Shown here: one piece after another, positions 5,117 to 55,776 of the stretch
Position numbering within the stretch: the stretch's first letter is position 1
Layout: every line of letters begins with the position of its first letter
Origin: Nitratireductor sp. XY-223
GTDB lineage: Bacteria; Pseudomonadota; Alphaproteobacteria; Rhizobiales; Rhizobiaceae
NCBI RefSeq assembly: GCF_004959855.1
Contig: NZ_SPNT01000001.1
Location: 372,001 to 436,000, forward strand
DNA length: 64,000 bases
Direction: 5' to 3'
Translations under genes and position numbers: made by a program
The notes under the pieces: generated by a model
Databases searched by the model: none
What the model was told of the DNA's origin: nothing
The model's input: only the letters and a program-made list of their open reading frames with translations

Positions 5117-5968
5117 TTAGTTTTTGCCCTGTTTCTGCCGGCGCGCCTCGGCAATGGCCACGGGCAGCGCCATGCACAGCGCCATGCTGGCCGACAGGGA
5201 GCGGAAGCCGGCATAGTCGGATTCGGCAACTTCCAGCCACTCGGTTGCGCAATCGGCGAGCGGCGAGAAGGCGGAATCGGTGATGGCAACGACCGGGACA
5301 CCCGCATCCGCCATCGCCCGTGCCTGGGCAACGCTGTCGGCCGCATAGGGCGAGAAGCTGATTGCCAGCGCCGCGTCCTGCCGGTTGGCCATCGACGCGA
5401 TTTCGGGATCGATGCCGTTGGGCGACGCGATCAGGTTGTTCTTGACCCTCAGCTTGCCGAAGGCATAGGCCATGTGGGCGACGAGCGGGTAGGAGCGCCG
5501 GCGGGCAATCAGGTATATGGTATCGGCGCCCGCCAGGATGCCGACCGCCCGCGACAGGAGAGCGGGGTCGACCAGATCGGAGAAATCCTGCAGTGAGCGT
5601 TGCGCTGCCGTGAGGAAACCCCGCACCAGCGCCGCCTCGCCCTGTTCGTCCTCCTTGGTGTTCTTCAGCGCCTTCATGCGCTCTTCGTAGCTCGAATTGC
5701 GTCCGCGCAGCCGCTCCTGGAAGACCTTCTGCAGATCGGAAAAGCCCTCATAGCCCAGCTGGTGGGCGAAACGCACAAGGGTCGAGGGCTGGACATCGGC
5801 CGCGCCGGCAATGCTCGCCGCGGTGCCGAATGCGACTTCGTCGGGATGATCGAGCGCGTATTTGGCGACCTGCGCCAGGCGCCTCGGCAGGGCGCTCCGG
5901 CGGTCCATGATCAGGCCGCGCAGCGACTCAAAATCACGCGGCGCGAGGGTGTCTTCGTCAGCGGCCAA
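5117..5968 (-). CDS. iolR: RpiR/MurR-family regulator of inositol genes (IolR-like)
   Basis: An RpiR-family repressor of 283 residues from the chosen start. It has an N-terminal helix-turn-helix (about residues 20-85; LAQVAKYALDHPDEVAFGTA, then QPSTLVRFAHQLGYEGFSDL) and a C-terminal SIS sugar-binding domain (DTIYLIARRRSYPL, AISFSPYAADSVAQARAM). TTG at 5968 is preferred because AAAGGGGA precedes it by about 8 bases; the ORF extends to 6043 but overlaps the operator region. It lies upstream of iolC in the same direction and diverges from the dehydrogenase gene at 6092. Matching operators at 5070, 6013, 6033 and 7251 suggest it controls both iol operons and itself. Confidence 0.88.
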   Translation of the reverse strand: MAADEDTLAPRDFESLRGLIMDRRSALPRRLAQVAKYALDHPDEVAFGTAASIAGAADVQPSTLVRFAHQLGYEGFSDLQKVFQERLRGRNSSYEERMKALKNTKEDEQGEAALVRGFLTAAQRSLQDFSDLVDPALLSRAVGILAGADTIYLIARRRSYPLVAHMAYAFGKLRVKNNLIASPNGIDPEIASMANRQDAALAISFSPYAADSVAQARAMADAGVPVVAITDSAFSPLADCATEWLEVAESDYAGFRSLSASMALCMALPVAIAEARRQKQGKN

Positions 5969-5991
5969 TGTGCTTCCCCTTTGAAACGTTC

Positions 5992-6046
5992 TTGACCTAA
6001 TTTGGCACAAATGAAATAAATATTCCACATTGGAAATGATCATTTC
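5992..6046 (+). promoter_or_regulatory. divergent iolR / dehydrogenase control region with two operators
   Basis: TTGACC at 5992-5997 is followed by GAAATAAATATTCC (6013-6026), which overlaps the expected -10. A second, perfectly palindromic GAAATGATCATTTC lies at 6033-6046. Both fit a relaxed GGAA-N6-TTCC operator. The first has the same geometry as the site upstream of the inositol transporter: TTGACC starts 21 bases before the operator in both. The region separates the minus-strand regulator from the plus-strand dehydrogenase, so both could be repressed from here. Confidence 0.6.
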
Positions 6047-6091
6047 GTTCAGAATCGGTCATTAGCCCCACTCGATTTTCTGGAGAATCCC

Positions 6092-7210
6092 ATGGAATCT
6101 GTAGGCGTTGGCCTGATTGGTACAGGCTATATGGGCAAGTGTCACGCCCTTGCCTGGAACGCCGTAAATCCGGTGTTTGGAGATTGTCCGGACATCCGCC
6201 TGGTCCACCTTGCCGAGGTAAGTGAAGACCTGGCCGCGGCCAAGGCGCGCGAGCTCGGCTTCGAAAAAAGCACCGCCGCGTGGCGGGCCGTGGTCGAAGA
6301 CCCGCAGGTGGACGTGGTGTCGATCACCACGCCGAACGCCTTTCACGCGGAGATGGCCATCGCCGCTCTGGAGGGCGGCAAACACGTCTGGTGCGAGAAA
6401 CCGATGGCGCCGGCTGTCGCGGACGCCGTGCGTATGCGCGATGCCGCCGTGAAAAGCGGGCGTGCGGCGGTTCTCGGCTACAACTATATCCAGAATCCGG
6501 TGATGCGCCATATCGGGGCACTGCTGGAGGCCGGAGAGATCGGCGCGGTGCACCATGTCCGCTTCGAAATGGACGAGGATTTCATGGCCGATCCAAAGGC
6601 GCACTTCTTCTGGAAGAGCGAAGCGGCCTCGGGATACGGCGCCCTGGACGATTTTGCCGTGCATCCCCTGTCGCTTATCCACACCCTTTTGGGACCGGTC
6701 TCGTCCGTGATGGCCGACATGGCCAAGCCCTATGACAGGCGGCCGCTTTCGGACGGCGGGCATCGCCCCGTCGAAACCTTTGACGTGGCCAGCGTGCTGC
6801 TCCGGCTGGAAAGCGGTGCCGCGGGGACGCTGTGCGTCAGCCGGTCGGCCTGGGGGCGCAAGGGGCGTGTCGCCATGCAGATATTCGGCTCCGAGGGCGC
6901 GATATTGTTCGATCAGGAGCGGATGAACGAGTTCCAGCTCTACCGCAACCAGGGTCACTCGGCCAATCAGGGATTCAGCACCATACTCGCGTCGCCGGAC
7001 CATCCGCCCTACGACCGGTTCCTCCCGGCTCCGGGCCACGGGCTCGGCTTCAACGATCAGAAGGTCATCGAATGCCGCCAACTGCTTTCGGCCATGTCCG
7101 GCGATCCGGCGCATGTGATCGATTTCGAAGAAGGGCTGGCGATCGAGCGCACAATTCACGCCATGGCCCGTTCGTTCGAGGAGGGCCGCTGGGCCGATGT
7201 TCCGCGATAG
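6092..7210 (+). CDS. Gfo/Idh/MocA-family oxidoreductase, probable cyclitol dehydrogenase
   Basis: A 372-residue NAD(P)-dependent dehydrogenase. The Rossmann motif GLIGTGYMGKCHALAW is at the N terminus and the family motif CEKPM follows at about residue 105. It closely resembles the dehydrogenase at 59593 (GGGYMGKAHSVAMNAV there; shared PGHG and QDQ/NDQK stretches near the C terminus), so the two are paralogues in two inositol-type loci. It faces away from iolR and precedes the inositol ABC transporter. A role on an inositol stereoisomer such as scyllo-inositol, or on inosose, is inference; sequence alone does not set substrate. Confidence 0.82.
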   Translation: MESVGVGLIGTGYMGKCHALAWNAVNPVFGDCPDIRLVHLAEVSEDLAAAKARELGFEKSTAAWRAVVEDPQVDVVSITTPNAFHAEMAIAALEGGKHVWCEKPMAPAVADAVRMRDAAVKSGRAAVLGYNYIQNPVMRHIGALLEAGEIGAVHHVRFEMDEDFMADPKAHFFWKSEAASGYGALDDFAVHPLSLIHTLLGPVSSVMADMAKPYDRRPLSDGGHRPVETFDVASVLLRLESGAAGTLCVSRSAWGRKGRVAMQIFGSEGAILFDQERMNEFQLYRNQGHSANQGFSTILASPDHPPYDRFLPAPGHGLGFNDQKVIECRQLLSAMSGDPAHVIDFEEGLAIERTIHAMARSFEEGRWADVPR

Positions 7211-7229
7211 GTTCGGTCGCATTTGGCCC

Positions 7230-7264
7230 TTGACCTCAACGGCAAAAAATGGAATAAATATTCC
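7230..7264 (+). promoter_or_regulatory. inositol transporter promoter with IolR-type operator
   Basis: TTGACC (7230-7235) is followed by GGAATAAATATTCC at 7251-7264, an exact GGAA-N6-TTCC site overlapping the probable -10 (ATAAAT or TAAATA). The transporter gene starts at 7406, leaving a leader of about 130 bases. It is the best match of the inositol operators in this window. Confidence 0.65.
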
Positions 7265-7405
7265 GCTAGATTGAAATTTGGTGAATATGTTCCGTTTTGT
7301 ACGGTACGCGGCCGAATTCGAATCGCAGCGGTTTTCGCCTCTTTTGCAAAAGGGGTTTTCCGGAAAATGAGGGTGCTGCCGGACACCCTGGTGGAGGATT
7401 TTGAA

Positions 7406-8356
7406 ATGAGAAAACTATTACGCGGTCTTGTCGCGAGTGTCTTTGCCGTGGGCACAATGTTCGGGATCGCCACATCGGCGCAGGCCGAAGGCGAGCGCAT
7501 TATTCTTATCAGCCATGCACCGGATTCGGATTCCTGGTGGAACACGATCAAGAACGGCCTCGCGCTGGCCGGCGATCATGTGAACGCCGAGGTCGAATAC
7601 CGCAACCCGCCGACCGGTGACATTGCCGACATGGCGCGCATCATCGAGCAGGCTGCGGCTTCCAATCCGGACGGCATCATCACGACGCTGGCCGACCCGG
7701 ACGTGCTTAGCGGACCGATCCAGAATGCGGTCGCCAAGGGAATTCCGGTGATCATCATCAATTCCGGCACGCCGGAGCAGGCTGCCGATGTCGGCGCGCT
7801 GATGTATATCGGTCAGCCCGAATACGATGCGGGTCTGGCTGCCGGCATGCGTGCGAAGCGCGACGGCATCGGCTCCTTCCTTTGCGTGAACCACGTGGTT
7901 TCCAACCCGGTTGTCGGCGAGCGCTGCCGCGGTTTTGCTGACGGACTCGGCGTCGAACTCGGCGATTCCATGCTCGATTCCGGACAGGACCCGGCCGAGA
8001 TCAAGAACCGTGTGAAGGCCTTCCTGTCCGCCAATCCGGACACGCAGGCTGTCCTGACCCTCGGACCGACTTCGGCCGATCCGACGATCGAGGCGCTGAA
8101 AGAAAACGGCATGGCCGGAAAGATCTATTTCGGCACGTTCGATCTCGGCACTGAAATCGTGAAGGGCATCAAGGACGGAACGATCCAGTGGGGTATCGAC
8201 CAGCAGCCGTTCCTGCAGGCCTATCTTCCCGTGGTCGTGCTGGCCAACTACCAGCGCTTTGGCGTGCTGCCGGGCAACAACATCAACTCCGGCCCGGGCT
8301 TCGTGACCAAGGACGCCCTGTCGAAGGTTGAAGAGTTCGCGGGCGAGTACCGCTAG
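7406..8356 (+). CDS. inositol-type ABC transporter substrate-binding protein
   Basis: A 316-residue periplasmic binding protein of the RbsB/Peripla_BP_4 family. A signal peptide is clear (MRKLLRG, hydrophobic core, cleavage near TSAQA-EGER). The mature part starts with IILISHAPDSDSWWNTIKNG, typical of CUT2 sugar-binding proteins. The start at 7406 follows GGAGG; longer in-frame readings from 7223 cross the operator. Permease and ATPase genes follow. An IolR-type operator upstream and iolG downstream make myo-inositol the likely ligand. Confidence 0.88.
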   Translation: MRKLLRGLVASVFAVGTMFGIATSAQAEGERIILISHAPDSDSWWNTIKNGLALAGDHVNAEVEYRNPPTGDIADMARIIEQAAASNPDGIITTLADPDVLSGPIQNAVAKGIPVIIINSGTPEQAADVGALMYIGQPEYDAGLAAGMRAKRDGIGSFLCVNHVVSNPVVGERCRGFADGLGVELGDSMLDSGQDPAEIKNRVKAFLSANPDTQAVLTLGPTSADPTIEALKENGMAGKIYFGTFDLGTEIVKGIKDGTIQWGIDQQPFLQAYLPVVVLANYQRFGVLPGNNINSGPGFVTKDALSKVEEFAGEYR

Positions 8357-8366
8357 AAAGAACGGT

Positions 8367-8392
8367 GCGGCCGCGGACTACACCGCGGCCGC
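8367..8392. other. GC-rich hairpin after the binding-protein gene
   Basis: GCGGCCGCGG (8367-8376) and its exact complement CCGCGGCCGC (8383-8392) enclose a 6-base loop. It starts 10 bases after the binding-protein stop. No T-run follows, so it is more likely an mRNA-stabilising or processing hairpin than a full terminator, allowing the binding protein to be made in excess of the permease. Confidence 0.6.
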
Positions 8393-8529
8393 CGACCGTC
8401 TGCCGGGCATGCGGAACGTACCGCTGAGTTGCCCGAGGGTTTGTGTGGCTGCCACGGCGTCACCGTCGCAACATTGCATTTCTGAGGAGTGGACCCACCT
8501 GGAATGTCCGGGTGTGGATGGAGGCTGAT

Positions 8530-9669
8530 ATGTCGGAAGCCGACACCAAGGCGGCATCACCGCCAGAAGAGGCGAAGGACGAGCGCGTTCGTCAGATTTC
8601 GCCATTGCGCAAGGCGCTCGTACGTCCGGAACTGGGATCGATCTGCGGCGTCATCCTGGTCTTTGTCTTTTTCTTTCTGATCGCCCGCGATTCAGGAATG
8701 TTCTCACCGGAGGGCATCCAGAACTGGACCGTGGTTTCGGCGCAGTTCGCAATTATCGCCGTCGGTGCCTGTCTGTTGATGATCGCCGGAGAATTCGATT
8801 TGTCCGTGGGTTCGATGATCGGTTTCTCGGGAATCATCATCGCCATGATGTCGGTGACCTACGAGCAGCCGATGTGGCTATCGATCATCGTCGCCTTCGC
8901 CATCGCGATGGGGATCGGCTGGCTCAACGGGTTCCTGGTCATTCGGACCGGCCTGCCATCGTTCATCGTGACGCTGGCGTTCCTTTATATCCTGCGCGGG
9001 CTGACCATCTTCCTGGCGCGCGTTACCACCAACAAGACGATCATCGGCGGCGTGCGCGATGCGGCCGAGGGCGACTGGCTCGCCGCGATCTTCGGCGGCA
9101 AGATCCTGACCGGGTTCTTTCAATGGCTGGCCGACAACGGCCTCATCGACAAGTTCGTCGCCGGCAACCGGGCGGGCGAACCCGTGGTCGACGGCGTGCC
9201 GATGCTGGTCGTCTGGGCGATCGGACTCATCATATTCGGCCACATCCTCCTGACGCGCACGCGTTTCGGCAACTGGATCTTCGCCTCCGGCGGCGACGCC
9301 CAGGCGGCCCGTTATTCGGGTGTTCCGGTCAACCGCGTGAAGATCCTGATGTTCATGTTCACCGCCTTCTGCGCCACAGTATTCGCGACCTGTCAGGTGA
9401 TGGAGTTCGGCTCGGCGGCGGCCGACCGCGGTGTCCTGAAGGAGTTCGAGGCGATCATTTCCGTGGTCATCGGCGGGGCGCTGCTGACCGGCGGCTACGG
9501 CTCGGTGATCGGCGCCGCGCTCGGCGCGCTGATCTTCGGCGTCGTGCAGCAGGGGTTGTTCTTCGCAGGTGTCGAGAGTTCGCTGTTCCGCGTGTTCCTC
9601 GGCGTCATCCTGCTGCTCGCGGTGATTTTGAACACCTATATCCGCCGCAGCATCACGGGGGAGCGCTGA
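8530..9669 (+). CDS. inositol-type ABC transporter permease
   Basis: A 379-residue inner-membrane permease of the RbsC/CUT2 family (BPD_transp_2) with about eight to ten hydrophobic segments. The motif GEFDLSVGSMIGFSG is typical of RbsC-type permeases, as is the C-terminal EFEAIISVVIGGALLTGGYG stretch. The start at 8530 (MSEADTKAA) has GGAGG six bases upstream. A soluble insertion of about 60 residues (GGVRDAAEGDWLAAIFGG through RAGEPVVDG) interrupts the middle, as in FrcC-like permeases. It sits between the binding protein and ATPase genes, one base apart from the latter. Confidence 0.9.
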   Translation: MSEADTKAASPPEEAKDERVRQISPLRKALVRPELGSICGVILVFVFFFLIARDSGMFSPEGIQNWTVVSAQFAIIAVGACLLMIAGEFDLSVGSMIGFSGIIIAMMSVTYEQPMWLSIIVAFAIAMGIGWLNGFLVIRTGLPSFIVTLAFLYILRGLTIFLARVTTNKTIIGGVRDAAEGDWLAAIFGGKILTGFFQWLADNGLIDKFVAGNRAGEPVVDGVPMLVVWAIGLIIFGHILLTRTRFGNWIFASGGDAQAARYSGVPVNRVKILMFMFTAFCATVFATCQVMEFGSAAADRGVLKEFEAIISVVIGGALLTGGYGSVIGAALGALIFGVVQQGLFFAGVESSLFRVFLGVILLLAVILNTYIRRSITGER

Positions 9670-44167: not shown

Positions 44168-45163
44168 GTGATCCAAACCCCTTATCTCCTGTTTCTCGGC
44201 GATGCGCCGGACGCGCTGGCGGCAAAGGTCGCCCAGGGTATCAAGGACTGGCGGCCGGAACTTGCCGTCGGTCAACTCCGCCTCGAGGGCTGCAAGGCGG
44301 ATATGGGCCTTGCCGACATGACCATCGAGGAGGCGGTGGCCAGGGGCGCGAAGACCCTCGTCATCGGTGTTGCCAATCGCGGCGGCGTCATCTCGGCAAG
44401 CTGGATGGACGTGCTGAAGGCGGCGCTTGCGGCAGGGCTCGACCTGGCATCGGGACTGCACAACCATCTCAATGACGAACCGGACCTTGTGGCGGTCGCG
44501 CAGCGCGAAGGACGCACCCTGCACAATGTGCGCATACCGAGTGTCGCCTATCCGATCGCCAACGGCGTCAAGCGCAGCGGCAAGCGCCTACTGGCCGTCG
44601 GCAGCGACTGTTCCTGCGGCAAGATGTATACGGCGCTGTGCATGGAGCGGGAAATGCGCGATCGCGGCATGAAGGCGACGTTCCGCGCGACCGGCCAGAC
44701 GGGCATCCTGGTGACGGGATCAGGCGTTCCGCTCGATGCGGTTGTCGCCGATTTCATGGCCGGTGCGGTGGAGTATCTCACGCCCGACAACGATGCCGAC
44801 CACTGGGACCTGATCGAGGGGCAGGGCAGCATTTTCCACCCGTCCTATTCCGGCGTCTCGATGGCGCTGATCCATGGCGGCCAGCCGGACGCCCTGATCC
44901 TGTGCGACGAGCCGAACCGGCCGCATATGCGCGGTCTGCCGGGCTACAAGGCACAGAGCCTGGAACTGCTGCGCGATACCGCTCTGCTGCTTGCCCGTAT
45001 CGTCAACCCGGACTGCCGGGTTACCGGTATTGCGCTCAACACCTCTGCGATGGGCGAGGCGGAAGCCGCTGAATACGCGCAAGGGGTGGAGGAGCGCATG
45101 GGCGTTCCGACGGTCGATCCGTTCCGTCACGGCGCGGCGCGCCTTGTCGATGCGCTCGAATAG
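44168..45163 (+). CDS. dgcN: D-glutamate N-acetyltransferase DgcN (DUF1611)
   Basis: A 331-residue DUF1611 protein with an N-terminal Rossmann-like domain and a C-terminal P-loop-like domain (RLLAVGSDCSCGKMYTALCM at about residue 140; DLIEGQGSIFHPSYSGVSM). Proteins of this family next to the enolase-type DgcA are described as N-acetyltransferases acting on D-glutamate. The start is GTG at 44168. DgcA follows directly (TAG then ATG), as in the described pair. The substrate could be D-glutamate or a relative. Confidence 0.82.
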   Translation: MIQTPYLLFLGDAPDALAAKVAQGIKDWRPELAVGQLRLEGCKADMGLADMTIEEAVARGAKTLVIGVANRGGVISASWMDVLKAALAAGLDLASGLHNHLNDEPDLVAVAQREGRTLHNVRIPSVAYPIANGVKRSGKRLLAVGSDCSCGKMYTALCMEREMRDRGMKATFRATGQTGILVTGSGVPLDAVVADFMAGAVEYLTPDNDADHWDLIEGQGSIFHPSYSGVSMALIHGGQPDALILCDEPNRPHMRGLPGYKAQSLELLRDTALLLARIVNPDCRVTGIALNTSAMGEAEAAEYAQGVEERMGVPTVDPFRHGAARLVDALE

Positions 45164-46153
45164 ATGGCCATGGGTATCGAAACCTCGGTTTCCGAGACGG
45201 TGTTTCCGCTGGCGGAGGTCTTCACCATTTCGCGCGGATCCAAGACCGAGGCGCGGACTGTCACTGTGACGCTGCGGCAGGATGGCCATAGGGGCCGGGG
45301 CGAATGCGTTCCCTACGCACGCTATGGCGAGACGGTCGCGAGCGTCATGGAAACGATTTCGTCCCTGGCTGAAGAGATAGCTTTCGGGCTGGACCGGCGG
45401 GCGTTACAGGCGTGCCTTCCGGCGGGCGCGGCGCGCAATGCGCTGGACTGTGCCTTCTGGGACCTCGAGGCGAAACAATCGAGAAGGCGCGCCTTCGAGC
45501 TTGCCGGCCTGAAGGTTCCCGGTCCCGTCGCGACGGCCTTCACATTGTCCCTGGAGGCGCCCGATACCATGCGGGAAAAAGCGCGGGAGAATGCGCACCG
45601 GCCGCTTTTGAAGATCAAGCTCGGCGGGGAGGGTGATCTCGAGCGTCTGGAGGCCGTGCGATCCGGCGCGCCTGACGCGGCGATCATTGTCGATGCCAAT
45701 GAGGGCTGGAGCGCGGAAACCTACGCGGCGCTGGCGCCGGAGATGCTGCGCCTCGGGGTGACGATGGTCGAGCAGCCCTTGCCGGCCGGCGCGGACGAAG
45801 CGCTGGCGACCATGGATCGGCCGCTGCCGGTCTGCGCCGACGAAAGCTGCCATGACCGGGCATCGCTGGCCGGAATCGCCGGCAAATACGACATGGTCAA
45901 TATCAAGCTGGACAAGACCGGCGGCCTCACCGAGGCGCTGGCGCTGAAACGCGATGCGGAGGCGGCCGGCCTCGGCATCATGGTCGGCTGCATGGTGGCG
46001 TCGTCATTGGCCATGGCACCGGCCGTGCTCGTCGCGCAGGGCGCCGATATCGTCGATCTGGACGGGCCGCTGCTGCTTGCCGAGGACAGGCAAAACCCGC
46101 TCTTGTATGATGCCAGGGGCGTTCATCCATCCACATCCGAACTCTGGGGCTGA
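45164..46153 (+). CDS. dgcA: N-acetyl-D-glutamate racemase DgcA (enolase superfamily)
   Basis: A 329-residue dipeptide-epimerase-like enolase-superfamily enzyme. It has the KxK motif LLKIKLGG, three metal ligands in IIVDANEGW, MVEQPLP and CADESCH, and the second lysine in NIKLDKTGG: the two-lysine arrangement of racemases. Next to dgcN it is expected to convert N-acetyl-D-glutamate to the L form. A second ATG two codons in (45170) is an alternative start. It lies 2 bases before the transaminase gene. Confidence 0.85.
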   Translation: MAMGIETSVSETVFPLAEVFTISRGSKTEARTVTVTLRQDGHRGRGECVPYARYGETVASVMETISSLAEEIAFGLDRRALQACLPAGAARNALDCAFWDLEAKQSRRRAFELAGLKVPGPVATAFTLSLEAPDTMREKARENAHRPLLKIKLGGEGDLERLEAVRSGAPDAAIIVDANEGWSAETYAALAPEMLRLGVTMVEQPLPAGADEALATMDRPLPVCADESCHDRASLAGIAGKYDMVNIKLDKTGGLTEALALKRDAEAAGLGIMVGCMVASSLAMAPAVLVAQGADIVDLDGPLLLAEDRQNPLLYDARGVHPSTSELWG

Positions 46154-46155
46154 TC

Positions 46156-47010
46156 ATGCGGACAGTTTATGTGAACGGCAGTTTTGTGCCCGAAAACGAG
46201 GCGACGGTGTCGGTCTTCGATCGCGGCTTCCTTTTTGCCGACGGTGTCTACGAGGTCACCTCCGTGCTCGAAGGCAAGCTGGTCGATTTCCAGGGGCATT
46301 GCGGCCGCCTGCGGCGCTCGCTGGGCGAACTGCAGATGAGCCTAGAGACCTCGGACGAGGAACTGCTGTCGATCCACCGGCAACTGGTGGCGAAAAACGA
46401 TATCGATGAAGGGCTGGTCTATCTTCAGGTGACCCGCGGTGCGGCGGATCGCGATTTCGCCTTCCCGCCGCAGGACACGCCTGCGACCCTTGTGCTGTTC
46501 ACCCAGGTCAAGGCGCTGATCGACAGCGAACTTGCCAATCGCGGCCAGAAGATCTTCACCGTCGAGGACCACCGCTGGACCCGGTGCGACATCAAGACCG
46601 TGCAGCTTCTCTATCCGTCGCTCGCCAAAATGGAGGCGAAATCCAGGGGCGGCGACGACGCATGGCTGGTGCGAGACGGCCTTGTCACGGAAGGTTCGTC
46701 CAACAACGCCTATATCGTGCTTGACGACGGAACCATCGTCACGCGCGATCTTTCCAACCTCATTTTGCACGGCATCACGCGACGGGCGGTGCTGGAGTGC
46801 GCACGCCACCTGCAGATGAAGGTCGTCGAGCGGCCGTTCACCGTCGAGGAGGCGACCGGTGCAGTCGAGGCCTTCTCGACCTCGGCATCGGGTTTCGTCT
46901 GTCCGGTCGTCGCGATCGACGACAACACCATCGGCACGGGCGAACCCGGACCCGTCGCGCGCAAACTGCGCGAAGTCTATATCGCGGAAATGCGCAAATC
47001 GGCGATCTGA
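46156..47010 (+). CDS. D-amino-acid transaminase (class IV, PLP)
   Basis: A 284-residue fold-type IV aminotransferase. The PLP-binding lysine is in RCDIKTVQLLYPSLAKMEAK (about residue 145) and the phosphate-binding loop is LVTEGSSNNAYIV. N-terminal VYVNGSFVPENEATVSVFDRG is typical of D-amino-acid transaminases. It is the third gene of the dgcN-dgcA operon and would deaminate D-amino acids, for example D-glutamate or D-alanine. It is followed by the lysine-degradation genes, so D-2-aminoadipate is a further candidate, by inference. Confidence 0.87.
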   Translation: MRTVYVNGSFVPENEATVSVFDRGFLFADGVYEVTSVLEGKLVDFQGHCGRLRRSLGELQMSLETSDEELLSIHRQLVAKNDIDEGLVYLQVTRGAADRDFAFPPQDTPATLVLFTQVKALIDSELANRGQKIFTVEDHRWTRCDIKTVQLLYPSLAKMEAKSRGGDDAWLVRDGLVTEGSSNNAYIVLDDGTIVTRDLSNLILHGITRRAVLECARHLQMKVVERPFTVEEATGAVEAFSTSASGFVCPVVAIDDNTIGTGEPGPVARKLREVYIAEMRKSAI

Positions 47011-47195: not shown

Positions 47196-48410
<1,215 letters not shown>

Positions 48411-48427: not shown

Positions 48428-50644
48428 ATGGATCGCGCGGAGATCGTCCACGAGAACTTCCTGAAACGGGTTTCGGGGGGCGATTTCCCGTCAGCCGTCG
48501 CCGACGTGTCGCCGGACGATGCGGGACTGAGGCCGGAACAGCTCGTCGAGATGTTCCGCAGCCAGGTGCTGTCGCGGCAGCTCGACCGCATTTCGCGCAA
48601 GCTGCAGGCGCGGGGCGAGGGGTTCTACACCATCGGCTCGTCCGGTCACGAAGGCAATGCCGCGGTAGCCGCCGCGCTGCGCCCCGGCGACATGGCGTTC
48701 CTGCACTACCGCGATGCCGCCTTCCAGATCCAGCGCTCGACACAGGTTCCAGGGCAGACACCGGCCTGGGACATGCTGCTGAGTTTCGTTGCTTCCAGCG
48801 ACGATCCGATATCGGGCGGCCGTCACAAGGTGCTCGGCTCCAGGGCCCTTTCGATCCCGCCGCAGACTTCGACGATCGCCAGCCATCTGCCCAAGGCGGT
48901 CGGCGCGGCCTATTCGGTCGGCCTTGCGAAACGGCTGAAGCCGGAACACCGCAAGCTCCCGGACGACGCTATCATCCACTGCAGTTTCGGCGATGCCTCG
49001 GCGAACCACTCGACAGCGCAGGGCGCGTTCAACACCGCCTGCTGGACGGCCTATCAGGGCATTCCGCTGCCGCTGCTTTTGGTCTGCGAGGACAACGGCA
49101 TCGGCATTTCCACAAAGACGCCCGGCGGCTGGATCGCGGCGACGATGGCGCAGCGCCCGGCCCTGAAATATTTCCGCTGCTCCGGGCTCGACATGGTCGA
49201 GACCTACGATGCGGCGCAGCGGGCCGCCGATTATGTGCGCAGGCGCAAGAAACCAGCCTTCCTGCATATGACGACGGTGCGGCTCTACGGCCACGCCGGT
49301 TCCGACATGCAGACCGCCTACATGACGAAGGACGAGGTCGAGGCCGACGAGGCCAACGATCCGCTGCTCCATTCAGCGCGGATCCTGGACGATGGCGGGG
49401 TGCTCGGCCGCGACGATGTTCTTTCGATCTACAACGAGGCCGAGGAACGGTGCGCCCGTATCGGCGAGAAGGTCATCCGGCGCCCGAAGCTGGAGACGCC
49501 CCGGCAGGTCATGGCGAGCCTCGTTCCGCCGAAGCGCGAATGCCGCAAGGGCAATGGCCCGTCCGCGGACCGGCGGCGCGCGATCTTCGGCTCCGATGCG
49601 AAGACGCTGGACAGCCCGCAGCACATGGCACGGCTGCTCAACTGGGCGCTCACGGACCTGATGATGGAACATGACGAGCTTGTCCTCGCGGGGGAGGATA
49701 TCGGTCCCAAGGGCGGCGTCTACAATGTCACCGCGAAGCTGCACCAGCGCTTCGGCGCGCACCGGGTCATCAACACGCTGCTCGATGAGCAGTCGATCCT
49801 CGGCCTTGCCATCGGTCTTGCCCATAACGGCTTCGTGCCGATGCCCGAAATCCAGTTCCTGGCCTATCTGCACAATGCGGAAGACCAGGTCCGCGGCGAA
49901 GCCGCGACGCTGAGCTTTTTCTCCAACGGCCAGTTCACCAACCCGATGGTGATCCGCATCGCCGGGCTCGGGTACCAGAAGGGCTTCGGCGGCCATTTCC
50001 ACAACGACAACAGCCTGGCGGTGCTGAGGGACATACCGGGCGTGATTATCGCGTGTCCTTCGAACGGCGCGGACGGGGTTCACATGCTGCGCGAGTGCGT
50101 GCGCCTGGCGCGCGAGGAGCAACGGGTCGTCGCCTTCGTCGAGCCGATCGCGCTTTACATGACCCGGGACCTGCACGGCGAGAAGGACGGGTTGTGGACC
50201 TTTCCCTACGAGCCGCCGGGCAGCGGCAACCCCATCCGTCTCGGCGAGATCGGCCTGCATGGCGACGGGACGGACCTTGCCATTGTGACCTATGGCAACG
50301 GCTACTACCTGTCCCGCCAGGCGGAGAAAGTCCTGTCGCAGGATCACGGTCTTAGTATGAGGATCGTCGATCTCCGCTGGCTGGCGCCGCTCAGCGAAGC
50401 GGCGATCCTCGAAGCCGTAAGCCCATGCACGAACGTGCTCGTCGTCGACGAATGCCGGGTCACCGGTTCGCAATCGGAGGCGCTGATGACCCTGCTTGCG
50501 GAGAAGGCTGGACCTGACAAGAACATCGCACGCATTACAGCCGATGACAGTTTCATCCCGCTCGGACGGGCCGCGACGTCGACGCTGCCGAGCCGCGACG
50601 GCATTGTCGCGGCGGCGCTTTCCCTGACGGGGAAGGCAGCATGA
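48428..50644 (+). CDS. fused E1 alpha/beta thiamine-dependent 2-oxoacid dehydrogenase
   Basis: A 738-residue fusion. The N-terminal half (about 1-340) is an E1 alpha with ThDP motif FGDASANHSTAQGAFNTACW...CEDNGIGIST. The C-terminal half (about 390-738) is an E1 beta (LVLAGEDIGPKGGVYNVTAK, GGHFHNDNSLAVL, TYGNGYYLSRQAEKVL). Such enzymes decarboxylate 2-oxo acids and pass the acyl group to a lipoyl E2. No E2 or E3 gene is seen nearby. Between gcdH and lysine genes, 2-oxoadipate is a plausible substrate, giving glutaryl-CoA for GcdH; this is inference. It overlaps the FabD-like gene by 4 bases. Confidence 0.85.
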   Translation: MDRAEIVHENFLKRVSGGDFPSAVADVSPDDAGLRPEQLVEMFRSQVLSRQLDRISRKLQARGEGFYTIGSSGHEGNAAVAAALRPGDMAFLHYRDAAFQIQRSTQVPGQTPAWDMLLSFVASSDDPISGGRHKVLGSRALSIPPQTSTIASHLPKAVGAAYSVGLAKRLKPEHRKLPDDAIIHCSFGDASANHSTAQGAFNTACWTAYQGIPLPLLLVCEDNGIGISTKTPGGWIAATMAQRPALKYFRCSGLDMVETYDAAQRAADYVRRRKKPAFLHMTTVRLYGHAGSDMQTAYMTKDEVEADEANDPLLHSARILDDGGVLGRDDVLSIYNEAEERCARIGEKVIRRPKLETPRQVMASLVPPKRECRKGNGPSADRRRAIFGSDAKTLDSPQHMARLLNWALTDLMMEHDELVLAGEDIGPKGGVYNVTAKLHQRFGAHRVINTLLDEQSILGLAIGLAHNGFVPMPEIQFLAYLHNAEDQVRGEAATLSFFSNGQFTNPMVIRIAGLGYQKGFGGHFHNDNSLAVLRDIPGVIIACPSNGADGVHMLRECVRLAREEQRVVAFVEPIALYMTRDLHGEKDGLWTFPYEPPGSGNPIRLGEIGLHGDGTDLAIVTYGNGYYLSRQAEKVLSQDHGLSMRIVDLRWLAPLSEAAILEAVSPCTNVLVVDECRVTGSQSEALMTLLAEKAGPDKNIARITADDSFIPLGRAATSTLPSRDGIVAAALSLTGKAA

Positions 50645-51678
50645 AGAAGACCGCCGTCGTCGTATGCCCCGGGCGCGGGACCTACAACAAGCCCGAGCTC
50701 GGCTATCTCGGACGCCACCATGGCGACAAGGCCGATTTCATTGCCATGCTTGACGCCTACCGCGCGGAACGCGGCCAGGCGGCGATCAGCGTGCTCGACG
50801 GCGCCGAGCGCTACTCGGTCGCCACCTATTCGCGCGGCGACAACGCCTCGCCGCTGATCTATGGCTGCGCCTACGCTGACTTCATGGCAATAGACCGCGA
50901 TGCCGTCGATATCGTCGCCGTGACGGGAAATTCCATGGGCTGGTATATCGCGCTCGCCTGTGCCGGCGCGCTCAGCGCCGAAAACGGCATGCATGTGGTC
51001 AACACGATGGGCACGTTGATGCAGGAGAGCCTGATCGGCGGCCAGACTGTCTACCCGATTGTTGACGACGAGTGGCACGAGATACCGGCAAAGCGGTCTG
51101 AGATCCTATCCCTTGTCGAAGAGATCGGCAGCCGGGCCGAGTGCAGCGTTGATCTCTCGATCGACCTGGGCGGCATGCTGGTGCTTGCCGGCAACGAGGC
51201 GGGCCTTTCGGCGCTGGAAGCCGCATTGCCGCGCGTCGGTGACCGTTTTCCGATGCGGCTGGCGAACCACGCGGCCTTCCACACGCCGCTGCAGCAGCCG
51301 GTGGCCGAGAAGGGAAGGGCGCTCCTTCCGGTCGACCTGCTAAGCCAACCGCAAGTGCCGCTGATCGACGGGCGCGGTAACGTCTGGTATCCGCACGCCA
51401 GCAATCTTTCCGCGCTTTGGCGCTATACGCTCGACCGTCAGGTAGTGCAACCTTACGACTTCACACGGGCCGTCCAGACATCGGTGCGGGAATTCGCGCC
51501 GGACTGTCTGATCGTGCTCGGGCCCGGCAACACGCTGGGCGGCGCGGTGGCACAGGCGCTGATTGCCTGTACATGGGAGGGGCTTCGGTCAAAGAACGAT
51601 TTTGTGGAGCGGCAAAGGCAGGACCCGTACCTGATTTCAATGGGTCTCGAGGAGCAGCGGGGAGCGGTTACCGGCTGA
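50641..51678 (+). CDS. FabD-like acyltransferase with altered substrate-binding residue
   Basis: A 345-residue protein with the malonyltransferase fold. The nucleophile elbow reads VTGNSMGWYIALACAGAL (Ser98; FabD has GHSLGE) and the histidine is in RLANHAAFHTP (about residue 257). FabD's carboxylate-binding Arg lies 25 residues after the serine; here residue 123 is Met (NTMGTLMQES). It may therefore handle an acyl group other than malonyl. It is coupled to the E1 gene by a 4-base overlap; transfer of an acyl group in that reaction is a possibility. Its 3' end overlaps the convergent Lrp gene by 11 bases. Confidence 0.75.
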   Translation: MKKTAVVVCPGRGTYNKPELGYLGRHHGDKADFIAMLDAYRAERGQAAISVLDGAERYSVATYSRGDNASPLIYGCAYADFMAIDRDAVDIVAVTGNSMGWYIALACAGALSAENGMHVVNTMGTLMQESLIGGQTVYPIVDDEWHEIPAKRSEILSLVEEIGSRAECSVDLSIDLGGMLVLAGNEAGLSALEAALPRVGDRFPMRLANHAAFHTPLQQPVAEKGRALLPVDLLSQPQVPLIDGRGNVWYPHASNLSALWRYTLDRQVVQPYDFTRAVQTSVREFAPDCLIVLGPGNTLGGAVAQALIACTWEGLRSKNDFVERQRQDPYLISMGLEEQRGAVTG

Positions 51679-52090
51679 CCTTGGCGAGCCGCAGGCTGCT
51701 GACGGTCTCGGCGACGTCGGGCACGCGCCTGATATCGTCGAGGATCTCGTCGAGCTTCTTGAGGGAATGGGTGCTGATCTCGACAATCATGTCGAAACTT
51801 CCGCTGAGCGAGTGGATATCGCCGGTGCCGTCGATCTTCCGTAGCGCGGCAACGGTGGGTCGCGTATCATTGGCGACGAGTTTCAACAGGCAGAATGCGC
51901 TGATGACCGCCTCCTCTTCGTTGGGTCCGAGTTCAACGGTGAACCGGGCGATCGTGCCGCGATCGACCATGCGGGCGATGCGGTTCTGCACGGTGGCGCG
52001 GGAGACGCCGAGGTCGGCCGCCAGGTCGGAGACGGACCGCCTTCCGTCCCGTGTGAGGATTCGCAACAGGGTGTGGTCGACGCTGTCCAT
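51668..52090 (-). CDS. Lrp/AsnC-family regulator of lysine degradation
   Basis: A 140-residue Lrp-type protein: N-terminal helix-turn-helix (LLRILTRDGRRSVSDLAADL, GVSRATVQNRIARMVDRG) and a C-terminal RAM-type amino-acid-sensing domain (ISAFCLLKLVANDTRPTVAA, SLSGSFDMIVEI). The start at 52090 (MDSVDHTLL) has GGAAAGG just upstream; 52102 is the alternative. It diverges from the AmaB gene and converges on the FabD-like gene. A lysine or aminoadipate sensor is likely from context. Confidence 0.88.
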   Translation of the reverse strand: MDSVDHTLLRILTRDGRRSVSDLAADLGVSRATVQNRIARMVDRGTIARFTVELGPNEEEAVISAFCLLKLVANDTRPTVAALRKIDGTGDIHSLSGSFDMIVEISTHSLKKLDEILDDIRRVPDVAETVSSLRLAKVSR

Positions 52091-52167
52091 GTGCCTTTCC
52101 ATTTTGCATCCGATATCTTACAAAATGACAAGAAATCACCGAAATGTAAAAAGGATATTGCTTTTTG

Positions 52168-52234: not shown

Positions 52235-53734
52235 ATGACATTTCAAGAAATCCTGGCCGCATCCGGCTTTGCTCAGGGCGAACTGGAAGGCGGCGCGATG
52301 GACGTGCATACGCCGGTTGACGGCAGCCGCATCGCATCGCTGCAGACCCATTCGGAATCGCAGGTTCATGCGGTGATCGCCCGCGGCAGGGAGGCTTTCG
52401 ACGCCTGGCGCAAGGTGCCGGCGCCGCGCCGCGGCGAGCTGGTGCGCCTCCTCGGCGCGGAACTGCGGGCGGAGAAGGAAAATCTCGGCCGCCTCGTGAC
52501 GCTCGAGTGCGGCAAGATCTACCAGGAAGGCCTCGGCGAAGTGCAGGAGATGATCGACATCTGCGACTTCGCCGTCGGTCTGTCGCGCCAGCTCTACGGT
52601 CTGACGATCGCATCGGAGCGCCCCGGCCACGCGATGCGCGAGACCTGGCACCCGATGGGCGTTTGCGGTGTGATTTCGGCGTTCAACTTCCCCGTCGCCG
52701 TGTGGAGCTGGAACACCGCCATCGCCCTTGTGTGCGGCAATCCGGTGATCTGGAAACCGTCGGAAAAGACGCCGCTTACGGCACTGTCCTGCAAGAAGAT
52801 CTTCGACCGGGCCGTGGCCCGGTTCGGCGACGCGCCGGACGACCTGCTCCAGGTTCTCGTCGGCGGGCGCGAAGTCGGCGACACCCTGGTCTCGTCGCCG
52901 GATGTGGCCATCGTTTCGGCAACCGGCTCGACGCGCATGGGCCGCGCGGTCGGCGCGAAGGTGGCCGAGCGCTTCGGCCGCTGCATCCTCGAGCTCGGCG
53001 GCAACAATGCGATGATCGTCACCGGCAGCGCCGATCTCGAGATGGCCGTCCGGGCGATCGTCTTTTCGGCCGTCGGCACCGCCGGTCAGCGCTGTACCAG
53101 CCTGCGGCGGCTGATTGTGCATGAGGGCGTATACGACGCGCTCGTGCCGCGCCTGAAGGAAGCCTATTCGGGTCTTCCGATCGGAAATCCGCTGGAAGAG
53201 GGCGTGCTGGTCGGTCCGCTGATTGATGCCGATGCGCGGGCGGGCATGCAGACCGCACTCGATCAGGCACAGGCCGCCGGCGGAACCGTGCACGGCGGCG
53301 CCGCCGCGCTGACGGACAGCTATCCCGATGCGGCCTATGTCGCGCCGGCGATCGTCGAAATGCCGGGCCAAAGCGATATCGTCAAGCACGAGACCTTCGC
53401 GCCGATCCTCTATGTCATGAAGTATTCGGAGCTGGAGGAGGCGATCGGCATCCAGAATGCCGTGCCGCAGGGGCTGAGCTCCTGCATCTTCACCACCGAT
53501 GTGCGCGAGGCGGAGGAGTTCCTGTCCGATGTCGGTTCCGATTGCGGCATCGCCAATGTCAATATCGGCCCCTCCGGCGCCGAGATCGGCGGGGCATTCG
53601 GCGGTGAGAAGGAGACCGGCGGCGGCCGGGAATCTGGCTCCGATGCCTGGAAGGGCTACATGCGGCGGCAGACCAACACCGTCAACTACTCGCGCGAGCT
53701 GCCGCTGGCGCAGGGGATCAAATTCGACATCTGA
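52235..53734 (+). CDS. amaB: L-piperidine-6-carboxylate / 2-aminoadipate semialdehyde dehydrogenase (AmaB, ALDH7 type)
   Basis: A 499-residue aldehyde dehydrogenase. Catalytic Cys is in GTAGQRCTSLRRLIVHE (about residue 288), the Glu in CILELGGNNAMIV, and the NAD loop in GVISAFNFPVAVWSWNTA. GQRCTSLRRL and GGGRESGSDAWKGYMRRQT are characteristic of the ALDH7/antiquitin group, which oxidises aminoadipate semialdehyde to 2-aminoadipate in lysine breakdown. It diverges from the Lrp gene and precedes the lysine dehydrogenase-like gene by 33 bp. GAGGAGAACC precedes the ATG. Confidence 0.9.
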   Translation: MTFQEILAASGFAQGELEGGAMDVHTPVDGSRIASLQTHSESQVHAVIARGREAFDAWRKVPAPRRGELVRLLGAELRAEKENLGRLVTLECGKIYQEGLGEVQEMIDICDFAVGLSRQLYGLTIASERPGHAMRETWHPMGVCGVISAFNFPVAVWSWNTAIALVCGNPVIWKPSEKTPLTALSCKKIFDRAVARFGDAPDDLLQVLVGGREVGDTLVSSPDVAIVSATGSTRMGRAVGAKVAERFGRCILELGGNNAMIVTGSADLEMAVRAIVFSAVGTAGQRCTSLRRLIVHEGVYDALVPRLKEAYSGLPIGNPLEEGVLVGPLIDADARAGMQTALDQAQAAGGTVHGGAAALTDSYPDAAYVAPAIVEMPGQSDIVKHETFAPILYVMKYSELEEAIGIQNAVPQGLSSCIFTTDVREAEEFLSDVGSDCGIANVNIGPSGAEIGGAFGGEKETGGGRESGSDAWKGYMRRQTNTVNYSRELPLAQGIKFDI

Positions 53735-53767: not shown

Positions 53768-54826
53768 ATGAACAAGATCGCCGTTCTCGGGCTCGGCAAG
53801 GTCGGCGACCTTGCCGCCCTGCTTCTTCACGATTCCGGGTTTTCCGTCACCGGTTTCGACCGTCACGCACCGCGCGGGGCGCACCCCTTCGCGGTGGAGA
53901 CCGTCGATGTCTCAGACAGCGGAACCATGCAGAACGCGTTCGCCGATTTCGACGCGGTCCTTTCGTGTCTGCCCTATCATCTCAACCTCGGGGTGGCGAA
54001 TGCCGCCCACGCCGCCGGCATCCACTATTTCGATCTGACCGAGGACGTGCCAACGACCCAGCACATCCTGGAGCTTTCGGAAACGGCGAGGGGCCTGATG
54101 GCGCCGCAATGCGGTCTCGCGCCCGGCTTTGTCGGCATCGTCGGGGCGTCGCTGATCGGCGAGTTCGACAAATGCCGCTCGGTGCGCATGCGGGTCGGCG
54201 CGCTGCCGCAAAACCCAACGGGACTGATGGGCTACAACTTCAACTGGTCGCCGGAGGGCGTGGTCAACGAATATCTGAACGACTGCGAGGTGATCGAGGG
54301 CGGCGAGCGCAAGTGGGTGTCCCCAATGGAGTGGCACGAGACGCTCTATATCGACGGCGTCAAGCTGGAGGCCTTCACAACGTCCGGCGGCCTCGGCACC
54401 ATGTGCGACACCTATCACGGCGTCGTCGACAATATCGATTACAAGACCATGCGCTATCCCGGGCACATGGAGCTGATGAACTTCTTCTTCCACGAGCTTT
54501 TGATGCGCGAACGGCGCGAGCTTGCCGGTGAAATCCTCGTCCACGCCAAGCCGCCGGTCGACCACGACGTCGTCTATGTGCATGTCGCGGCCGAGGGCAC
54601 CATCGACGAGCGCCTGTCGCGCAAGGAGTTCGTGCGCGCCTACCGGCCGATCCAGATCGCCGGCGCGGGACGGACCGCCATTGCCTGGACGACCGCCGGG
54701 TCGGTGGTCGCGGTGATCGAAATGGTCCGCGACGGGCTGCTGCCGTCGAACGGTTTCCTGAAACAGGAAGACATTCCGCTCAGCTCTTTTTTGAAGACGC
54801 GCACGGGTGCATTTTACGGCCAATAG
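53768..54826 (+). CDS. saccharopine dehydrogenase-fold protein, probable lysine 6-dehydrogenase
   Basis: A 352-residue NAD-binding protein (AVLGLGKVGDLAALLLHDSG at the N terminus; saccharopine dehydrogenase fold, YNFNWSPEGVVNEYLNDCEV, TTSGGLGTMCDTY). A lysine 6-dehydrogenase would oxidise the epsilon amino group of lysine to aminoadipate semialdehyde, the substrate of the enzyme encoded just upstream. The length is shorter than full saccharopine dehydrogenases and fits lysine 6-dehydrogenase. Exact substrate remains inference from the neighbours. Confidence 0.82.
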   Translation: MNKIAVLGLGKVGDLAALLLHDSGFSVTGFDRHAPRGAHPFAVETVDVSDSGTMQNAFADFDAVLSCLPYHLNLGVANAAHAAGIHYFDLTEDVPTTQHILELSETARGLMAPQCGLAPGFVGIVGASLIGEFDKCRSVRMRVGALPQNPTGLMGYNFNWSPEGVVNEYLNDCEVIEGGERKWVSPMEWHETLYIDGVKLEAFTTSGGLGTMCDTYHGVVDNIDYKTMRYPGHMELMNFFFHELLMRERRELAGEILVHAKPPVDHDVVYVHVAAEGTIDERLSRKEFVRAYRPIQIAGAGRTAIAWTTAGSVVAVIEMVRDGLLPSNGFLKQEDIPLSSFLKTRTGAFYGQ

Positions 54827-54873: not shown

Positions 54874-55776
54874 TTGGCCCGCAGACTTCCGCAGACAAGC
54901 CTTCTGGAAACCTTCGAAGCCGCCGCCCGGCGCGGCAGCTTCACGCTCGCCGCTGCCGACCTGAACATGACGCAGGGCGCTGTCAGCCGGCAGATCCGGG
55001 CGCTGGAGGAGCAACTCGGCACGGAGTTGTTCATCCGAGAGCGTCAGCGTATCGCGCTCTCGCCGGCCGGTGCCGCCTATCTCGAGGAAATCTCGAAGGC
55101 ACTGTCGATCATCCGCATGGCGTCGACCGCGCTGCAGGTCAATCCGGACGGCGGCGTGCTCAATCTCGGCATCCTGCCGACATTCGGGACGAGATGGCTG
55201 GCGCCGCGATTGCCGGATTTCTTCCGGCGGCATCCCGGCATTACCGTCAACCTGACGACCAAGCTGCGGCCCTTCGATTTCGGCAGCGAGATGCTCGACG
55301 CCGCGATCCATTTCGGCGCCGATGAATGGCCGGGTACCGAGCACCTGTTCCTCGCCGAGGAAACCGTTGTGCTCGCCTGTTCGCCGACGCTCCTGCCGCA
55401 GCTCAACATCGAAACCGTCGAGGATGTCGCCAACGGGCCGCTGCTGCATCTTGCGACGCGGCCCTTGGCGTGGCAGCGATGGTTCGAGATGAACGGCCTT
55501 GAAACCGAGGTGCAGCCGGGCACGACGTTCGACCAGTTCGCGACGATGGCCCAGGCCGCCGCCCATGGACTGGGCCTGGCGCTGCTGCCGGAATTCCTGA
55601 TCGAGGACGAGTTGCGCAGCGGTAAGCTGGTCGCCGCCTGGGACAAGGCGAACAAGAGCATCGGCAGCTACGCGCTGATCTGGCCGAAAGCGCGCCGCAG
55701 CCACCCGCCGCTGATCCGGTTCAGGGAGTGGATCGAGGGTGCTGTCGGAGAGGGGATAGACAGCCATTCGCGGTAA
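54874..55776 (+). CDS. LysR-family regulator (GcvA-like)
   Basis: A 300-residue LysR protein with an N-terminal helix-turn-helix (LETFEAAARRGSFTLAAADL, NMTQGAVSRQIRALEEQLG) and a substrate-binding-like effector domain (LNLGILPTFGTRWLAPRLPD). The annotated start is TTG at 54874; the ribosome site is weak (AGGCG), so the N terminus is uncertain. It follows the lysine dehydrogenase-like gene by 47 bp. It may control this operon or the membrane protein gene downstream; neither is shown by the sequence. Confidence 0.88.
   Translation: MARRLPQTSLLETFEAAARRGSFTLAAADLNMTQGAVSRQIRALEEQLGTELFIRERQRIALSPAGAAYLEEISKALSIIRMASTALQVNPDGGVLNLGILPTFGTRWLAPRLPDFFRRHPGITVNLTTKLRPFDFGSEMLDAAIHFGADEWPGTEHLFLAEETVVLACSPTLLPQLNIETVEDVANGPLLHLATRPLAWQRWFEMNGLETEVQPGTTFDQFATMAQAAAHGLGLALLPEFLIEDELRSGKLVAAWDKANKSIGSYALIWPKARRSHPPLIRFREWIEGAVGEGIDSHSR

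Follow-up and report, generated by a model that had tools for sequence, protein, structure and literature searches.

Which enzyme converts 2-oxoadipate to glutaryl-coenzyme A (glutaryl-CoA) in bacteria that degrade lysine by the 2-aminoadipate route is a question for which no publication naming a gene was found by full-text search. It is raised by a gene pair in a stretch of 64,000 nucleotides from Nitratireductor sp. XY-223 (contig NZ_SPNT01000001.1, positions 372,001 to 436,000), referred to here as the window, in which the gene of a fused 2-oxoacid dehydrogenase E1 follows gcdH and runs into the gene of a protein resembling the malonyltransferase FabD. No publication assigning the E1 or its FabD-like partner was found among the matches listed, as judged by title or the start of the abstract and with subscription journals mostly outside the search. 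The comparisons described below point with considerable confidence to a 2-oxoadipate dehydrogenase in the case of the E1. The fuller reading, in which this dedicated E1 borrows a lipoyl arm and the FabD-like protein is a facultative partner acting on glutaryl-lipoyl, has in our judgement about an even chance of being correct. The genes on which the argument turns are the following:

47196-48410, plus strand: gcdH, glutaryl-CoA dehydrogenase, the next step of the pathway (PDB matches)
48428-50644, plus strand: fused alpha/beta-type 2-oxoacid dehydrogenase E1, 738 amino acids (aa), the proposed 2-oxoadipate dehydrogenase E1 (open reading frame (ORF), Pfam, catalytic columns)
50641-51678, plus strand: FabD-like acyltransferase-fold protein, 345 aa (ORF, AlphaFold2 (AF2) model, family alignment)

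The fused E1 and its lysine gene context

A gap of 17 bases separates the end of gcdH from the start of the E1 gene, and the end of the E1 ORF and the start of the FabD-like ORF share the 4 bases ATGA. The coordinates thus agree with the first-pass annotation, which had been made from the letters of the window and had noted a 738-residue fused E1 after gcdH with a 4-base overlap to a FabD-like gene. For the gcdH product, PDB matches were obtained with 4w9u (720 bits), 3gnc (645) and 1siq/1sir (570), of which 3gnc, 1siq and 1sir carry the name glutaryl-CoA dehydrogenase, and every NCBIfam match was under its cut-off. The E1, named 'thiamine pyrophosphate-dependent enzyme' in RefSeq, matches Pfam E1_dh, Transket_pyr and Transketolase_C and gave no Pfam match of the 2-oxoglutarate dehydrogenase (OGDH) type; at 1e-20 the PDB matches of its profile were pyruvate, branched-chain and unspecified alpha/beta E1s. 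Its structure model is weak, with a mean predicted local distance difference test score (pLDDT) of 79, and the top Foldseek matches were OdhA, transketolases and DHTKD1 with template modelling (TM) scores of mostly 0.5-0.6; with a model of this quality the fold does not discriminate between the E1 types. A second, distant fused E1 is encoded in the same genome (contig C1, locus L132; ORF of 664 aa at 6772-8763, minus strand); the gene after it, at about 5676-6743, codes for a short E2 that includes a lipoyl domain.

The residues of the E1 were compared between 92 rows of its clade and 45 rows of other E1s and fragments, with the sister clade left out. Glu454 and His525 of the beta part and His289 of the alpha loop, whose columns we take to be catalytic, are kept in all 92 clade rows. 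In the same 92 rows GDA stands for GDG and HNDN for HSQS, and the thiamine diphosphate motif GDG...NN reads GDA...DN. Moreover, 17 Lys, Arg or His positions are conserved to at least 97% in the clade and are rare in other E1s, which, as a pattern in the alignment, would fit an altered, more basic substrate site without naming the substrate.

Other loci carrying the FabD-like gene were taken from a scan of one genome per species, as the best 80 of 121 relatives. The E1 stands beside the FabD-like gene in 90 of the 91 loci compared, the exception (L034) being a contig end. An overlap of 4 bases recurs in 84 of the 92 measurable pairs (92 of 95 loci, with gene starts chosen by script) and indicates that the pairing is not due to chance; spacings in the remaining 8 pairs lie between -1 and +110. 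At least one of five lysine genes was found at 60 of the 79 FabD-like-bearing loci of at least 18 kb, referred to as well-flanked loci, which are not independent and include many from Ruegeria. The single counts were 31 for an AmaA-like gene, 24 for gcdH, 20 for amaB, 16 for an aminotransferase and 11 for a lysine-dehydrogenase-like gene. The first-pass annotation had proposed a check for a consistent order gcdH, E1, FabD-like gene; this order was recovered in loci L197-L201, which come from other families of the phylum, and in L206, where it is extended to aminotransferase-gcdH-E1-FabD-like-amaB. A gcdH next to the pair was likewise seen at loci from Sphingomonas, Oricola and Hoeflea, and on a plasmid from Shewanella; in Ruegeria and Shewanella the pair is plasmid-borne (L207, L208). 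For a flavin adenine dinucleotide (FAD) oxidase beside the pair in Ruegeria loci, the best NCBIfam match was AmaA, the pipecolate oxidase, with 416 bits against a cut-off of 600 (one protein). The available part of one report lists pipecolate and 2-aminoadipate among the lysine intermediates of Phaeobacter inhibens and names no gene for the 2-oxoadipate step (PMC5653290).

The neighbours of the pair on its downstream side in the window are:

51668-52102, minus strand: Lrp/AsnC-type regulator, convergent with the FabD-like gene and divergent from amaB
52235-53734, plus strand: amaB, L-piperidine-6-carboxylate dehydrogenase (NF050084, 824 bits against a cut-off of 730)
53768-54826, plus strand: saccharopine/lysine-6-dehydrogenase-like protein (Pfam Sacchrp_dh_C and Sacchrp_dh_NADP)
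54874-55776, plus strand: GcvA-like LysR regulator (profile match)

The PDB matches of the saccharopine/lysine-dehydrogenase-like product (3abi, 3ic5) are uncharacterised or putative proteins, and its lysine-specific activity is presumed by us. Together with a 2-aminoadipate aminotransferase, whose gene was not found beside the window pair, this protein and AmaB would lead from lysine to 2-oxoadipate, and the E1 would then feed gcdH. LysR-type matches were present at 60 of the 91 loci compared. Directly upstream of gcdH lies an apparent D-glutamate catabolism cluster (44168-47010), in which the genes of DgcN, DgcA and a D-amino-acid transaminase adjoin one another, all with NCBIfam matches over cut-off. 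The nearest named relative among the loci fetched is from Hoeflea poritis (83% over the FabD-like protein).

Possible lipoyl partners and the distribution of the FabD-like gene

With SucA, SucB, PdhC, BkdB, a further E2 and three E3 sequences of the own genome as queries, 95 loci, with flanking sequence reaching about 9-10 kb at most and a few loci on short contigs, gave no match to E2, E3 or SucA at a threshold of 1e-5, which agrees with the first-pass annotation, where no E2 or E3 gene was seen nearby. In another 57 loci with about 1.5 kb of downstream sequence, E2 was not matched either; E3 gave one clear match there (L271, 65% identity), which lies past the FabD-like gene on the opposite strand, and weak matches at two further loci (L273, L283). 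An E2-type match lies just downstream in 23 of 25 of the next-best E1 loci outside the clade. The clade loci in the same comparison had an E2 downstream in 0 of 5 cases and the FabD-like gene in 3 of 5.

Possible partners elsewhere in the genome were surveyed in 27 genomes, 25 with the pair and 2 with the E1 only, in which E2 catalytic domains were counted and a branched-chain E1-alpha was searched. The best branched-chain E1-alpha match reached at least 52% in 11 of the 25 pair genomes and 36-39% in 6, and 8 had nothing over 31%, the level of pyruvate-type proteins. One of these eight genomes (87% complete) gave no branched-chain E1-alpha match whatever, and in six of them the count of E2 catalytic domains was no higher than two. 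The branched-chain complex thus appears not to be the general partner of the E1, and as an obligatory partner it was rejected on these eight genomes, in which no branched-chain E1-alpha is recognisable. HglS, an alternative enzyme acting on 2-oxoadipate (PMC7286885), was not found in the window's own genome. Because of the conserved context, the missing HglS and the pair genomes without a recognisable branched-chain E1-alpha, the suggestion of the first-pass annotation that the pair takes part in the step from 2-oxoadipate to glutaryl-CoA appears well supported as far as sequence comparison reaches.

The pyruvate and 2-oxoglutarate complexes are likely to be the sources of the lipoyl group. 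A stand-alone lipoyl carrier was not seen among those 8 of the 13 above-cut-off matches whose surroundings were examined, GcvH not being searched for; the eight belong to E2 or E1-beta genes or lie beside carboxylase-like genes. In the reading preferred here, the fused E1 would decarboxylate 2-oxoadipate on thiamine diphosphate and put the glutaryl group on a lipoyl arm that belongs to another complex of the cell, the 2-oxoglutarate or the pyruvate dehydrogenase complex, and glutaryl-CoA would pass on to GcdH. The FabD-like protein may act on glutaryl-lipoyl with its Ser98/His214 site, either by transfer of the glutaryl group to CoA or by clearing of stalled glutaryl-lipoyl. A precedent for the borrowing of lipoyl arms is OdhA, which takes lipoyl in trans from AceF according to the available part of PMC10415282.

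The distribution of the two genes was analysed in a sample of 398 genomes with thresholds of E <= 1e-78 for the FabD-like family, below which the next matches were at 1e-15 and weaker and were taken as FabD-type, and of E <= 1e-120 for the E1. The FabD-like gene was detected in 16 genomes and the E1 in 29, and all 16 are within the 29. The 13 genomes with the E1 and without the FabD-like gene comprise 4 with E1s at 57-64% identity and 9 in a sister clade at 48-50%. In one family the E1 is present in 76 of 248 genomes, 45 of which carry the FabD-like gene anywhere and 31 do not; when the count is limited to genomes with a completeness of 90% or more and a contamination of 5% or less, the FabD-like gene is present in 42 and absent in 26 of 68 E1-positive genomes. 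A tree was calculated from 84 of 147 E1 rows (130 distinct) after near-duplicates and rows below 600 aa had been dropped. Within the inner clade it gave 5 gains or losses of the FabD-like gene, 4 of them forced by well-supported branches, by a quick method and with long branches and some unsure placements. That the FabD-like gene is often absent beside close relatives of the E1 goes beyond what the first-pass annotation had observed.

Among the E1 loci read that lack the FabD-like gene, several have retained a gene of lysine breakdown, namely gcdH (L193, L298, L299) or a pipecolate-oxidase-like gene (L302, L303), and three (L194, L300, L301) have none of the lysine genes searched. No common substitute gene was seen beside these E1s, and no natural fusion of E1 and FabD-like protein was seen in the open-frame lengths of the locus and genome scans. 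In the sister clade (L293-L297), a gcdH-like acyl-CoA dehydrogenase (47-49%) lies within 9 kb in 4 of 5 loci read; the three that were scanned had, as the window gcdH, only NCBIfam matches below cut-off, so that the substrate of these dehydrogenases is not fixed. Since the E1 persists in many genomes without the FabD-like gene, it is regarded as the core and the FabD-like protein as a facultative accessory.

Two positions of the E1 were considered as markers of the partner and rejected. The first two E1s without the FabD-like gene differed from 164 invariant positions at the Gly109 loop only, but Gly109 is kept by 5 of 8 such E1s and by 8 of 9 sister E1s. At position 299, mostly Leu or Met in the clade and Tyr-Arg elsewhere, Arg occurs in 5 rows that have the FabD-like gene. 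One genome with the E1 and without the FabD-like gene (G304, locus L193) has five E2 catalytic-domain matches, one a 125-aa fragment, and five relatives of the same family with the pair have two or three each; the extra domains are possibly a compensation, in one case. A locus filed under Nocardioides marinus (L099) is probably mislabelled or contaminated, since the final 600 residues of its E1 are the same as in the E1 of L282, whose source is of the same family as G304.

Several of these observations weigh against the proposed reading. None of the five lysine genes is carried by 19 of the 79 well-flanked loci, so that another 2-oxoacid is possible for the E1. An E1 using a branched-chain or other 2-oxoacid and standing near lysine genes for shared regulation only would account for these loci, and its solved sequence relatives, pyruvate and branched-chain E1s, point the same way. 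This explanation is, however, quite unlikely in view of the 17 basic positions, the eight pair genomes in which no branched-chain E1-alpha exceeds the pyruvate-type level and of which six show just two E2 domains, and the sister clade, which likewise neighbours a gcdH-like gene. Furthermore, 2-oxoadipate might be a substrate of SucA as well, the mammalian enzymes being reported to overlap in their substrates, and a dedicated E1 need then not be essential. No enzyme assay of any family member was found. In the sister clade neither E2 nor the FabD-like gene is just downstream of the E1 (9 of 9). Finally, were acyl transfer to require the FabD-like protein, it would be difficult to account for the 13 of 29 E1-positive genomes of the sample, and the 31 of 76 in the one family, that lack its gene.

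It is on this last point that a speculation of the first-pass annotation, in which the FabD-like protein could move the acyl group instead of a standard E2, is weakened. Full replacement of the E2 catalytic domain, by transfer of glutaryl from lipoyl to CoA in the manner of the E2 domain of OdhA, would explain that the FabD-like gene sits where an E2 follows other E1s, that the ATGA coupling recurs in 84 of 92 pairs and that the pair also stands without lysine genes, and it has OdhA as a precedent. It appears unlikely, however, with the E1 persisting, in several genomes beside lysine genes, where the FabD-like gene is absent, with four gains or losses forced by the tree and with no common substitute gene. 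Such a facultative distribution is more in keeping with an accessory than with a strict stand-in for E2, and acyl transfer by the FabD-like protein is possible as a facultative activity on glutaryl-lipoyl.

The active site of the FabD-like protein

The FabD-like protein was aligned with its family in 119 rows, of which 105 are distinct because 14 genes are present twice, and with 31 control rows (30 distinct), which were weaker matches of the same searches and were taken as FabD-type. The codons of the decisive residues are:

50674-50676, plus strand: Arg12, shared by 104 of the 105 distinct rows, the other being gapped; Gln of GQGSQ in FabD and in all 31 controls
50932-50934, plus strand: nucleophile Ser98 in GNSMGW (GHSLGE in FabD), shared by 104 of the 105 distinct rows, the other being gapped, and by all 31 controls
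51007-51009, plus strand: Met123, shared by 104 of the 105 distinct rows, the other being gapped (118 of 119 with the duplicates counted); carboxylate-binding Arg in FabD and Arg in all 31 controls
51280-51282, plus strand: catalytic His214, shared by all 105 distinct rows and all 31 controls

The kept Ser and His and the exchange of the FabD Arg for Met123, all noted in the first pass, are hence features of the whole family. In addition, and beyond what had been noted then, Arg12, Asn97 and Trp101 replace residues of the FabD site, Asn97 standing for His and Trp101 for Glu in 104 of 105 distinct rows. The single exception (L088) has an alignment gap at the changed positions and at Ser98. Gln267 is common to the family and the controls (Gln in 30, His in 1), and Gly244-x-Gly246 is an insertion relative to FabD. 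That Arg12 is the new carboxylate binder is a guess.

The protein scored 52.8 bits against NCBIfam TIGR00128 (FabD; curated cut-off 260.9) and 58.8 bits against TIGR03131 (MdcH; 297.9), below both cut-offs. A Pfam match was not obtained for the window protein, and only 4 of 50 family members match Acyl_transf_1 at 1e-3, weakly. The AF2 model (mean pLDDT 96) had FabD structures as its best folds in Foldseek, with a TM score by query length of 0.77 to 3k89, and the acyl hydrolase PksD was found lower down in the same list. The fold agrees with the RefSeq product name, 'ACP S-malonyltransferase' (ACP, acyl carrier protein), which is also given to family members such as those of L207 and L208. An ordinary malonyltransferase, the alternative named in the first-pass annotation, is nevertheless extremely improbable, because the malonyl-binding Arg is gone and a canonical FabD is encoded elsewhere in the window's own genome; the low FabD score and the joint replacement of four FabD-site residues (Gln, His, Glu and Arg) also speak against it. 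By its sequence the FabD-like protein differs from such an enzyme.

The FabD fold would also suit a link to ACP, in which the protein exchanges glutaryl between ACP and CoA and might so supply precursors of biotin or of fatty acids, and alphaproteobacteria use glutaryl-CoA as a biotin primer according to the available part of PMC7645780. By the same source, however, BioZ is acylated by glutaryl-CoA itself, and no recurrent ACP or biotin gene was noted in the locus comparison, in which ORFs below 90 aa were left out and no profile search was aimed at such genes. This role is considered very unlikely.

A Ser/His site without the malonyl-binding Arg, tied to the sole E1 that would make glutaryl-lipoyl, fits transfer to CoA and clearing of stalled glutaryl-lipoyl alike. 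We tentatively suggest, with some doubt, that the FabD-like protein is the first known acyltransferase-fold enzyme acting on lipoyl-bound glutaryl, as a glutaryl-lipoyl:CoA transferase or thioesterase. It would have arisen in bacteria in the service of a 2-oxoadipate dehydrogenase E1 that has no E2 to itself, and would correspond, without homology, to the E2 catalytic domain or to ABHD11, the human thioesterase that removes glutaryl from lipoyl on the 2-oxoglutarate complex (PMC12643935, available part). If this and the assignment of the E1 are true, a widespread E1 family fills the gap at the 2-oxoadipate step of bacterial lysine degradation, the existing RefSeq name is misleading, and glutaryl-lipoyl, whose handling in human cells is a recent finding, is dealt with in bacteria by a protein of different fold.

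Comparison with known systems

The window E1 is of the fused alpha/beta type of pyruvate and branched-chain E1s by Pfam and sequence, whereas human DHTKD1 is an OGDH-type E1. The two are alike in the reaction, as proposed for the window E1, and in that DHTKD1, too, has no E2 to itself; it has subunits in common with the 2-oxoglutarate complex (available parts of PMC10415282 and PMC12643935). With pyruvate and branched-chain E1s, fused or as alpha/beta pairs, the window E1 has in common the domain order and the Glu and His columns; it differs from them by GDA for GDG and HNDN for HSQS (92 of 92 clade rows) and by its surroundings, since an E2-type gene adjoins the E1 in 23 of 25 loci outside the clade and in 0 of 95 clade loci. 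The FabD-like protein resembles FabD, and also MdcH, in its fold (TM 0.77 to 3k89), Ser and His, and is set apart by Arg12, Asn97, Trp101 and Met123 for Gln, His, Glu and Arg and by the inserted Gly244-x-Gly246. Actinobacterial OdhA, with E1o and E2o domains in one chain, is a precedent for an E1 that brings a transferase with it and depends on lipoyl from AceF in trans (PMC10415282, available part), but it has a true E2 domain, where the window pair has a separate and dispensable gene of FabD-like fold. ABHD11 is likewise a Ser/His enzyme on glutaryl-lipoyl (PMC12643935, available part), the activity proposed for the FabD-like protein, but has an alpha/beta hydrolase fold.

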